The notes under the pieces are model-generated. The model was not told the DNA's origin. It made no database searches and worked only from the letters and a program-made list of their open reading frames with translations. A DNA stretch of 64,000 nucleotides from Alphaproteobacteria bacterium (lineage in GTDB: Bacteria; Pseudomonadota; Alphaproteobacteria; JAVJVX01): positions 62,001 through 126,000 of the forward strand of contig JAVJVX010000007.1 in the NCBI GenBank assembly GCA_040220875.1. The letters run 5' to 3'. Both the position numbers and the translations under genes were made by a program. Of the stretch, positions 5,371-40,446 are shown in pieces. Each line of letters begins with the position of its first letter. The stretch's first letter is position 1.

Positions 5371-5558
5371 GCGGCGGGAAATCCTGGCGGGCCGCGCCCG
5401 ATTTTTAGGAATACATAATTAAATCAACGGAATAATAGGTCTTACAGAGAATATAAAGCTTAAATTTTTTGATATCGACGGGCAGATTAAGTAAAATTCT
5501 CAAGTTGTATGGCTAGGCGGGCCGGAGCGGGCGCGCGGCCGTTCCGAGGGGGGTGCTC
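5371..5558. promoter_or_regulatory. A+T-rich divergent promoter region between MFS and MarR genes
   Basis: The stretch from about 5400 to 5510 is strikingly A+T-rich for this window (for example TTTTTAGGAATACATAATTA and AAGCTTAAATTTTTTGATAT). Both flanking genes start here and point away from each other. It almost certainly holds promoters for both, and probably the MarR-type operator. I could not find one convincing palindrome; the nearest is an imperfect pairing of CTTAAATTTT with AAAATTCTCAAG. Confidence 0.6.
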
Positions 5559-6218
5559 ATGGATGAACCAGGAAAACCGGTCGGGATCGACGTGGACCAG
5601 GCAGGTGGGCAGGGCCGGTCTGATAGCGTGGGCACGGGCATGGGCCGGGAAGGCGAGACCCTGGATCGCACCTGGCATCTGGCTAAATCCGAACACTCGC
5701 TGGCCGTGGCCGAATTCGAGCATACGATCCTGCAGTTATCGGAAGCCTTCAATCGTTGGAACATCGAGTGCGAGGCGCTCGGCATGGGTGAATATATGAG
5801 CCAGCCGGAGGTGTCGATACTGCATGTCATCCGGATGCGTGACAGGCCCAAAAGCCTCTCCGATATCGTCAAGTTCCTCAACCGCGACGATAGCGCCAAT
5901 ATCCAGTACAGCCTGCGAAAGCTCGAAAAATCCGGATACGTCGCCAAGACGCCACGTGCCTCCAAGCGCCAGACCACTTACGTGGTTACGGAAAAGGGGC
6001 GCAAGGCAACGGATGCTTTCGCCAGCGTGCGCGAGTCCATCCTGATTCCCCTGACATCGGCCCTGCACGACACGCATCTCTCGATCGAGGAAGCGACCAA
6101 GACCATGCAGCTCATGATCGGTATCTACGACCTGGCCGCGCGTACGGCCGGCAGTTACCGGTCCGACAGCGCCGATGGCGCCGGGAGCCCGCCGCCGGCT
6201 CGACGGGGCCGCGCCTAG
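5559..6218 (+). CDS. MarR-family winged-helix transcriptional regulator
   Basis: A 219-residue regulator. After about 50 polar, poorly conserved residues, a winged-helix domain runs from roughly residue 60 to 165: SQPEVSILHVIRM (helix before the HTH), SLSDIVKFLNRDDSANIQYSL (HTH), KLEKSGYVAKT and a wing with RQTTYVVTEKGR. MarR proteins are dimers that release their operator on binding a phenolic or similar ligand. The frame opens with GTG-CTC-ATG; I chose the ATG because GAGGGGGG lies at the right distance. It is divergent from the MFS gene and upstream of the GST and CoA-ligase genes, which are its likely targets. The C-terminal tail is Arg/Pro/Ser-rich and probably disordered. Confidence 0.88.
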   Translation: MDEPGKPVGIDVDQAGGQGRSDSVGTGMGREGETLDRTWHLAKSEHSLAVAEFEHTILQLSEAFNRWNIECEALGMGEYMSQPEVSILHVIRMRDRPKSLSDIVKFLNRDDSANIQYSLRKLEKSGYVAKTPRASKRQTTYVVTEKGRKATDAFASVRESILIPLTSALHDTHLSIEEATKTMQLMIGIYDLAARTAGSYRSDSADGAGSPPPARRGRA

Positions 6219-37789: not shown

Positions 37790-37865
37790 GGGCGATTAGC
37801 TCAGCTGGCAGAGCATCTCGTTTACACCGAGAGGGTCGGCGGTTCGATCCCGTCATCGCCCACCA
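37790..37865 (+). tRNA. tRNA-Val (anticodon TAC)
   Basis: A 76-base cloverleaf: acceptor GGGCGAT/ATCGCCC, D arm with AGCTCAGCTGGCAGAGC, anticodon stem TCTCG/CGAGA around loop TTTACAC (anticodon TAC), T loop TTCGATC, discriminator A and encoded CCA. Confidence 0.97.
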
Positions 37866-37912: not shown

Positions 37913-38110
37913 TAGGATTATGATCTCCCGATTTTGTGAACCGCCGCCGAAACGGACCAAAAGTCCAAAAAACTCCGGGTTTCAGGCTTCACACGCCGTG
38001 GGTGAGCCACCATAATCGTGGGCGTTCACGTGGACAGGCGGGCATTCACGCGGAAACGGAGGGTGTTCGGGTCTTTACCCTTCGGTTTCGCCCCGACGAA
38101 AGAGAGCCAG

Positions 38111-38824
38111 ATGGAACGACGGAATTCGCATCAGTGCCGTCTCACAGCACGGTCAGCGGGGAAGGCGCGTGCCGCCGCCGCGCGCACCGACAGCCGAGAC
38201 GGCCGACTCGCATTTGGAACAGCTGTTCTGATATGTGCGATTGCCCTTGTCCTCGGCGCATGTGCCGGTGCGCGCCCCGGGGGCGTGGCAGCGGGACAGC
38301 GAGCGGCGTCCCCGGTCCTGAGCGCCGCGGCGCCGGCCGGCGCCAGCGGGGCATCCTACACCGGTCACGCCAGTCGCCTGGGAGCGGCCGACGAAGCGCT
38401 TTGCGCCGAGTTCCGGAGTGAATGGGTCAATAACTTCATCAAGAAGGTCTACGATCTGCCCGCCAATGCCTATCCGGCGGACGCGCCGCTGCTGCACCGG
38501 GCCGGGTACGATGCCGACCTTCACGCCAAGGTCGCGGCCGAGGGGCTCGATGCCGATACCTGCGTCGTGCCAACCTGTTTCGTGTTGCCGCACCAGAACT
38601 GGTGGGAGCCTCATTGCGGCTATCGGATTCCGGACCGGACGGGGGAGAACCTCTATGACTGGGCGACCTGGAAGGACGGGCTGCGTCCGCCTGATCCCCA
38701 GGAAATGGCCATGGTGCGCGCCCGGGAGCTCGAGGCCAATTCGCGTGTCCGGGGATGCCCCAATTGTTCGACACGGCCGCCCGAGTACCGTGACCGTGAC
38801 TTTGGCACCGGTGACGAAAGCTGA
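38111..38824 (+). CDS. Cysteine-rich lipoprotein of unknown function, first of a tandem pair
   Basis: A 237-residue predicted lipoprotein. After a basic, Arg-rich lead (residues 1-33) comes a hydrophobic segment ending in the lipobox LGAC, with lipidated Cys51. A low-complexity Ala/Gly linker leads to a conserved domain (about 93-222): EALCAEFRSEWVNNFIKK, DTCVVPTCFVLP, WWEPHCGYRIPD (164-175), ENLYDWATWKDGL and GCPNCST. Six Cys (98, 151, 156, 169, 216, 219) match the next gene exactly in spacing. I do not recognise the family. The ATG at 38111 is the first that gives a near-normal signal; an in-frame GTG or TTG cannot be excluded. Confidence 0.75.
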   Translation: MERRNSHQCRLTARSAGKARAAAARTDSRDGRLAFGTAVLICAIALVLGACAGARPGGVAAGQRAASPVLSAAAPAGASGASYTGHASRLGAADEALCAEFRSEWVNNFIKKVYDLPANAYPADAPLLHRAGYDADLHAKVAAEGLDADTCVVPTCFVLPHQNWWEPHCGYRIPDRTGENLYDWATWKDGLRPPDPQEMAMVRARELEANSRVRGCPNCSTRPPEYRDRDFGTGDES

Positions 38825-38910
38825 TGGCCAGCTAGGCATTTTTCGTAATGAGTGGTCCGGAATCGATTTCGCATTGGTCCGGGTGCCGAATAGGACAGGG
38901 GGTCAGGCAA

Positions 38911-39654
38911 GTGCGTTTATTCATTCCGGTACTGTTGAGTAGCCTGTTGTTGGGTGCCTGCGCGGCCTCAGGGCCGGGCCGGGGCCCGGGCGGACCAATG
39001 GCGGGGGCCGAACCCGGCGTCACTGGCGACGGGCAGCGCGTGGCGGCGGTGTCGGCCCGGAGAACGGTCGAGACCAGCCGGCCCGGTGGAATCGCGCTGA
39101 CGCCGCCATCGGGTAAATATGCCGCGGGCACGACAAACACTTATGTCACGGCGAGCTCGTACAGGAACAAGGCGGCCGAAGACCTCGAATATTATGGTAA
39201 GCGCGTGGGCGATCATCCCAGCCTCAAGCTGACGGCGACGCAAGAAGCCATGTGCCAGGGGTTCCGCTCGGAGTGGGTGCGCAACTATATCGGTCGCATG
39301 TATGACAACAAGTTCAACGATGCGCCCTCTGGCGCCGTCAATCGGACGGCCGGCTCCTCGAACAACATCATTAACCGCATGGACGATGCGGGCCTGGATC
39401 GCGAAAGCTGCCGTATCCCGGAATGCTATTCGATCCCCCATTCGGGCTGGTGGGAGCCCCATTGCGGCTATCGGGTGCCGGATTCCGAAGGTGAGGACCT
39501 CTACGCCTGGGTCGAATGGCGTGACGGGCTGGAGCCCCCCTCGCTGCATGCGCTGGCCGAGCGAAAGCAAGAGGAACTGCGCGCCAATCTGCGCGGCTGC
39601 CCCACCTGCACCGGCCGCCACCTCAAGGTATTCGGGAACGAATCAGTCGATTGA
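38911..39654 (+). CDS. Cysteine-rich lipoprotein of unknown function, second of a tandem pair
   Basis: A 247-residue predicted lipoprotein and paralogue of its neighbour. Starting at the GTG at 38911 (AGGGGGTCAGG upstream) the signal peptide is ideal: MRLFIPVLLSSLLLGAC with lipidated Cys17; the ATG at 38848 would add 21 polar residues before it. After a Gly/Pro-rich linker the shared domain runs from about 110 to 235: EAMCQGFRSEWVRNYIGRM, ESCRIPECYSIP, WWEPHCGYRVPD, EDLYAWVEWRDGL and GCPTCTG. Six Cys (115, 167, 172, 185, 230, 233) match the first copy in spacing. It adds a 20-residue insert with NRTAGSSNNIINRM. Probably anchored in the outer membrane facing the periplasm. Confidence 0.8.
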   Translation: MRLFIPVLLSSLLLGACAASGPGRGPGGPMAGAEPGVTGDGQRVAAVSARRTVETSRPGGIALTPPSGKYAAGTTNTYVTASSYRNKAAEDLEYYGKRVGDHPSLKLTATQEAMCQGFRSEWVRNYIGRMYDNKFNDAPSGAVNRTAGSSNNIINRMDDAGLDRESCRIPECYSIPHSGWWEPHCGYRVPDSEGEDLYAWVEWRDGLEPPSLHALAERKQEELRANLRGCPTCTGRHLKVFGNESVD

Positions 39655-39805: not shown

Positions 39806-39882
39806 GGGGGTGTAGCTCAGTTGGTTAGAGCGCTGGCCTGTCACGCCAGAGGCCGCGGGTTCAAGTCCCGTCACTCCCGCCA
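39806..39882 (+). tRNA. tRNA-Asp (anticodon GTC)
   Basis: A 77-base cloverleaf: acceptor GGGGGTG/CACTCCC with one G:U pair, anticodon stem CTGGC/GCCAG around CTGTCAC (anticodon GTC), T loop TTCAAGT, discriminator G and encoded CCA. Confidence 0.97.
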
Positions 39883-40068: not shown

Positions 40069-40446
40069 ATGCATCCCATCATCAACCCCATCCTGAACGA
40101 CTACCTGCCGATCGTGGTCTTTCTCGCGATCGCCACCGGCCTCGCGATCGTGATGGTCGGGGCCTCACTGCTGGCGGCCCGGCAAAATCCGGACGCCGAA
40201 AAGCTCAGCCCTTATGAATGCGGTTTCGAGCCGTTCAGCGACGCGCGCAGCCAATTTGATGTGCGTTTCTACCTGGTCTCGATCCTGTTTATCATTTTCG
40301 ACCTTGAAGTAGCCTTCCTTTTTCCCTGGGCGATTGCCCTTGGTGATATCGGCCTGCTTGGCTTCTGGTCCATGGTGGTGTTCCTGGCCGTGCTCACCGT
40401 CGGCTTCATCTACGAATGGAAGAAGGGAGCACTGGAATGGGAGTAG
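40069..40446 (+). CDS. nuoA: NADH-quinone oxidoreductase subunit A
   Basis: A 125-residue membrane subunit of complex I with three hydrophobic segments and the conserved loop [44 protein letters not shown] between helices 1 and 2, which contacts the quinone channel (the loop Cys is in YECGFEP). First gene of the operon; its end overlaps nuoB by ten bases, so translation is coupled. Confidence 0.98.

Follow-up and report, generated by a model that had tools for sequence, protein, structure and literature searches.

Two adjacent genes in a 64,000-nucleotide stretch of an alphaproteobacterial genome (contig JAVJVX010000007.1 of assembly GCA_040220875.1, referred to here as the window) code for proteins, P0001 and P0002, which are members of a rare family filed in none of the databases searched. 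Six relatives were identified elsewhere in the phylum, each present as a single copy, and all six adjoin genes of a DUF1302/DUF1329/YCF48/MMPL system. This link of the relatives to loci for Ame-type hydrophobe transport was not visible in a first-pass annotation, which had been made from the sequence of the window. The reading preferred here, tentatively and with somewhat less than even confidence, is that the family is an accessory of divergent Ame-type hydrophobe transport and serves at the outer membrane as a partner for the docking of, or hand-over from, DUF1329 proteins. Two points hold the confidence at this level: the pair has no linkage to Ame genes in its own genome, and there are few linked cases.

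The upstream gene, for P0001, extends on the forward strand from the ATG at 38111 to the stop codon at 38824 and codes for 237 amino acids. The downstream gene, for P0002, lies on the same strand at 38848 to 39654 and codes for 268 amino acids when read from the ATG at 38848; judged from its sequence, the GTG at 38911 is the likelier start, which would yield the textbook lipoprotein signal MRLFIPVLLSSLLLGAC. In P0001, a long and basic N-region is followed by a hydrophobic stretch up to LVLGAC, with the lipobox cysteine C51 encoded at 38261 to 38263, and in P0002 the corresponding LLLGAC contains C38, encoded at 38959 to 38961 (both on the forward strand), so that LGAC is the lipobox of both proteins. 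With an N-terminal signal, a hydrophobic stretch and a lipobox cysteine, P0001 and P0002 are predicted to be bacterial lipoproteins, in agreement with the first-pass annotation. Upstream of the pair, a weak promoter-like site was identified on the forward strand at 37988 to 38016 (10/12), with one such site found versus 0.5 expected by chance.

The conserved cysteine core domains, defined by alignments and by the predicted fold, are encoded on the forward strand at 38384 to 38773 in P0001 and at 39229 to 39621 in P0002. The two cores, of about 127-130 amino acids, share 46% identity, including the motif WWEPHCGYR. The full-length proteins align locally with a Smith-Waterman score of 357, whereas none of 500 shuffles exceeded 57, so that the resemblance is not due to chance. 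The annotation of the pair as adjacent paralogues is thereby borne out. Both reading frames are open over their full length, and no stop codon or frameshift was identified in either of them. Comparison of the two genes gave a dN of about 0.58 and a dS of about 1.8, which is near saturation, and a dN/dS ratio of about 0.3. On the basis of this ratio and the intact frames, neither copy looks like a pseudogene, and a pseudogene reading of either copy, which had been named in advance as speaking against the annotation, was rejected. The alignment score and the dN/dS ratio together show that both genes are real, homologous and under constraint.

AlphaFold models of both proteins were built on an alignment of eight sequences, comprising the pair and the six relatives. 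Most of the core is modelled with confidence, in blocks with pLDDT values of mostly 76-93, while the linkers and the C-terminal tail are uncertain, with overall pTM values of 0.59 for P0001 and 0.55 for P0002. In both models, the predicted order of elements is the same, namely a long helix, a short helix, three strands and a helix, with an additional N-terminal helix in the model of P0002. A shared compact fold, which had been anticipated, is thus supported at the level of the models.

Besides the lipobox cysteine, each protein contains six further cysteines, at positions 98, 151, 156, 169, 216 and 219 in P0001 and at 136, 188, 193, 206, 251 and 254 in P0002. The pattern C..C-x4-C-x12-C..CPxC is identical in the two window copies, as had been noted; across the eight family members, however, only four of the six cysteines are invariant (C98, C151, C156 and C169 in P0001 numbering), together with conserved Pro, Gly, Arg, Leu-Tyr and Trp positions. 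In the models, the invariant cysteines of the C-x12-C motif are opposed across the turn of the first hairpin, at positions 106 and 119 of mature P0001 and 156 and 169 of mature P0002; the strand ends at 111/114 and 161/164, respectively, are in the same register. With a pair of invariant cysteines opposed in this hairpin and no CxxCH motif present, disulfides are likelier than heme or metal as the role of the cysteines. When the hairpin cysteines are paired with each other, the cysteine of the first helix and the first cysteine of C-x4-C form the likely second pair. The predicted disulfides would thus be C98-C151 and C156-C169 in P0001 numbering, a pairing that follows from the secondary structure of the models and not from measured coordinates.

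The first-pass annotation had left a disulfide role and a metal- or heme-binding role side by side, and only the former is supported by these data. No CxxCH heme-attachment motif was found in P0001, P0002 or the relative in SJ809, on which ground a c-type cytochrome was rejected, and a metal site was rejected on the eight-member alignment, which contains no invariant histidine and one invariant acidic residue. A related proposal, that the family is a periplasmic thiol-redox or metal/heme protein using the C-terminal CPxC as its redox or metal site, would be consistent with the retention of this motif in both window copies (CPNC at 38756 to 38767 in P0001 and CPTC at 39598 to 39609 in P0002, forward strand). 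However, the complete CPxC pair is present only in these two copies; each of the six relatives has part of it or none. In the models, moreover, the motif is located where the low-confidence C-terminal tail begins. A thioredoxin-like oxidoreductase was rejected on the same grounds and because neither a thioredoxin-like fold nor a match in the PDB was obtained; with the histidine and CxxCH results added, a redox or metal function is very improbable.

For P0001 and P0002, searches against Pfam, NCBIfam, PHROGs and PADLOC gave no credible match, and neither did Pfam and NCBIfam for all eight family members. Searches of the PDB by sequence and by profile were without a match, and Foldseek comparison to the PDB and to viral models gave nothing at E<=0.001. 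This upholds the earlier view that the proteins belong to no known family. One of the eight members matched the YcgN family cysteine cluster proteins (NCBIfam NF003507), which likewise contain cysteines, at E=0.036; this identity was rejected, as the value is not significant and concerns a single member.

In the genome of the window organism, no further copies beyond the pair were identified, and neither copy was found in 384 other genomes of the class, a comparison set related to the window organism at class level only. A clear relative, P0003, was found by a contig scan in the metagenome-assembled genome SJ809, which is labelled as a member of the Gammaproteobacteria. A core model of three sequences then matched two more genomes of the phylum (E=1.3e-15 and 4.1e-7), and a wider model added relatives in three others (G746, G756 and G1088). 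No relatives were identified among plasmids and viral contigs, and weak matches in L003, L010 and L017 were dismissed as chance, being a low-complexity frame, an unrelated protein and a short partial match. The WWEPH motif and the last helix are confined to the branch of the window copies and SJ809, and the five most distant relatives have neither of them, nor the CPxC motif, a point against the preferred reading. In the tree, P0001, P0002 and the SJ809 protein form a trichotomy, so that the duplication may be older than the lineage of the window organism, as far as these sequences indicate. The tree thus does not establish the lineage-specific local duplication that had been expected, and the predicted co-occurrence of both copies in related genomes did not hold, with none in the 384 genomes of the class and single copies in the relatives elsewhere.

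Within the window, the pair is flanked on the forward strand by the genes for tRNA-Val (37790 to 37865) and tRNA-Asp (39806 to 39882), followed by nuoA at 40069, and the gene order is ClpX-Lon-HU-tRNA-Val-pair-tRNA-Asp-NuoA, with hupB coding for HU. Among nuoA loci of the class with both tRNA genes inside the stretch, ten loci have a tRNA-Val to tRNA-Asp spacer of about 75-770 bp, compared to 1,940 bp here. The pair thus occupies an old spacer. The location between two tRNA genes had been described correctly; however, since this synteny is old, the flanks carry no information on the role of the pair. None of the four Ame genes (DUF1302, DUF1329, YCF48 and MMPL) was identified within the window, and an AmeABCD-type cassette is therefore absent from it. 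Elsewhere in the window, at 5553-6218, a protein of about 220 amino acids is encoded which is similar to one encoded at L067:8061-8735 (TWHLA/SWHLA ... EFE), beside a DUF1329-HyuA-HyuB locus of the same genome; from their sequences, the two are possibly MarR-type regulators.

The position of the pair beside hupB and nuoA, without linkage to Ame genes, is in favour of the main rival to the preferred reading. It states that the family is a general disulfide-stabilised envelope lipoprotein with a structural or stress function, which hitch-hikes in an Ame cassette in a few lineages, and that the envelope role of the window pair is unrelated to this cassette. This explanation is plausible, if rather doubtful.

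The reference system is AmeABCD of Castellaniella defragrans, which consists of a DUF1302, a DUF1329, a YCF48-like and an HAE3 RND protein; the organism needs the system for good growth on monoterpenes and for tolerance of them, and probably exports these compounds by it (PMC6394551). Growth on monoterpenes is impaired when a transposon interrupts ameB, the gene for the DUF1329 protein (PMC6394551), and Delftia deleted for a DUF1329 gene reportedly grows less well on phenanthrene (as cited in PMC13101534). A benzene-degrading culture expresses a cluster of DUF1329, YCF48 and MMPL proteins at a high level (PMC13101534), and phenanthrene-linked nanopods contain DUF1302 and DUF1329 proteins (PMC3110197). 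The loci of all six relatives carry the same families as AmeABCD, four in the case of the cassette and two in SJ809. Unlike these loci, the published fourfold cassette contains no lipoprotein, and the word is absent from the text of the paper (PMC6394551); the window pair itself, unlike the relatives, is not adjacent to genes of these families.

Five of the six loci, from two bacterial families (L049, L050, L051, L083 and L084), share one cassette on a single strand, in the order YCF48-MMPL-DUF1302-DUF1329-HyuA-HyuB-isochorismatase-lipoprotein-LeuC-LeuD-PrpR, with a PrpR-like sigma-54 regulator; all four Ame families are present in three of them, and three families in those of G756 and G746, where the YCF48 end lies outside the stretch covered. 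These five are perhaps one cassette spread by transfer, which would leave no more than two or three independent linkages, and a hitch-hiking lipoprotein gains from this. The SJ809 locus, however, ties the lipoprotein to YCF48 and MMPL in a different setting, in the order YCF48-MMPL-lipoprotein with UbiX and two UbiD-like genes nearby, and so argues against such hitch-hiking.

The SJ809 locus also bears on the proposal that the lipoprotein is a degradation-pathway accessory of the HyuA/HyuB-isochorismatase-LeuCD enzymes and has no part in transport. In the five cassette loci, isochorismatase and LeuC are its nearest neighbours, which fits this proposal. In SJ809, however, YCF48 and MMPL are retained without HyuAB/LeuCD-type neighbours. 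The HyuA/HyuB, isochorismatase and LeuCD enzyme families are, moreover, cytoplasmic, whereas the lipoprotein is exported, and a degradation accessory is improbable.

Among 80 genomes, a divergent DUF1329 subtype, with a best E of about 1e-50 to 1e-66 versus 1e-110 or better, was identified in all seven lipoprotein-positive genomes and in two of 73 negative ones, some of the absences possibly being false, as not every candidate frame was scored per genome. Fisher tests gave p = 1e-8 for all genomes and 1.5e-5 when positives from beyond the class were reduced to four, values which overstate the association, since the genomes share ancestry, the cassette may have travelled as a unit and the subtype cut-off was chosen post hoc. 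In one genus, all three positives have the divergent subtype, and the eight others have none or the other subtype. That presence of the lipoprotein tracks this subtype argues against a hitch-hiking envelope protein, and for a housekeeping function the family is much too rare. The two negative genomes with the subtype, G027 and G042, are of the same class as the window organism and contain 12 and 15 DUF1329 genes, some of them in tandem and the divergent type included; the lipoprotein was not found in them, which counts against the preferred reading.

The 2.5-Mb genome of the window organism itself contains 22 DUF1329 (PF07044) genes, of which 21 are included in the co-occurrence listing. In 19 stretches around these genes (for example, L060-L078), a single-sequence search found no DUF1302, YCF48 or MMPL neighbours, a result which, like the unlinked position of the pair, speaks against the preferred reading. 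The neighbours sampled were Rieske ring hydroxylases, VanA-type and 2OG-type oxygenases, luciferase-like monooxygenases, an amidohydrolase and an extradiol-dioxygenase-like protein.

According to the preferred reading, a family member would be a lipoprotein of the outer-membrane type, with a signal peptide II, a lipidated cysteine, a flexible linker and a small disulfide-stabilised domain. The system served would comprise a DUF1302 barrel, a LolA-like DUF1329 periplasmic protein, a YCF48-like protein and an MMPL/HAE3 pump, and the lipoprotein, held by its lipid anchor on the inner side of the outer membrane, would most likely be the partner to which DUF1329 proteins dock or hand over. LolB is an outer-membrane lipoprotein which receives its cargo from LolA. 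DUF1329 is LolA-like, as PF17131 also matches it, and by analogy only, an outer-membrane lipoprotein could take its cargo as LolB does. Unlike LolB, however, the family has a predicted small helix-helix-three-strand-helix domain; identity with LolB was rejected on this order of elements and because no LolB-like structure was matched by Foldseek in the PDB. Linkage of the relatives to Ame genes and co-occurrence with the DUF1329 subtype are observations; that the lipoprotein resides at the outer membrane, that DUF1329 is its partner and which way transport runs are what we infer. In the window organism, the two diverged copies would serve its DUF1329 proteins in trans.

In a stronger form, which is unlikely, the family would be an unrecognised fifth Ame-type component, a disulfide-locked lipoprotein of the outer membrane receiving cargo from DUF1329 carriers, and in the window organism the carriers would be uncoupled from the pumps and share two lipoproteins.

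To our knowledge, little is understood about how oily compounds such as terpenes and polycyclic aromatics pass through the envelope of Gram-negative bacteria, and Pfam still lists DUF1302 and DUF1329 as families of 'unknown function'. A lipoprotein which tracks one DUF1329 subtype across several lineages would give this hydrophobe machinery an additional component that can be tested, and a 2.5-Mb genome with 22 DUF1329 genes, those sampled having catabolic neighbours such as ring hydroxylases, is a natural system for its study.
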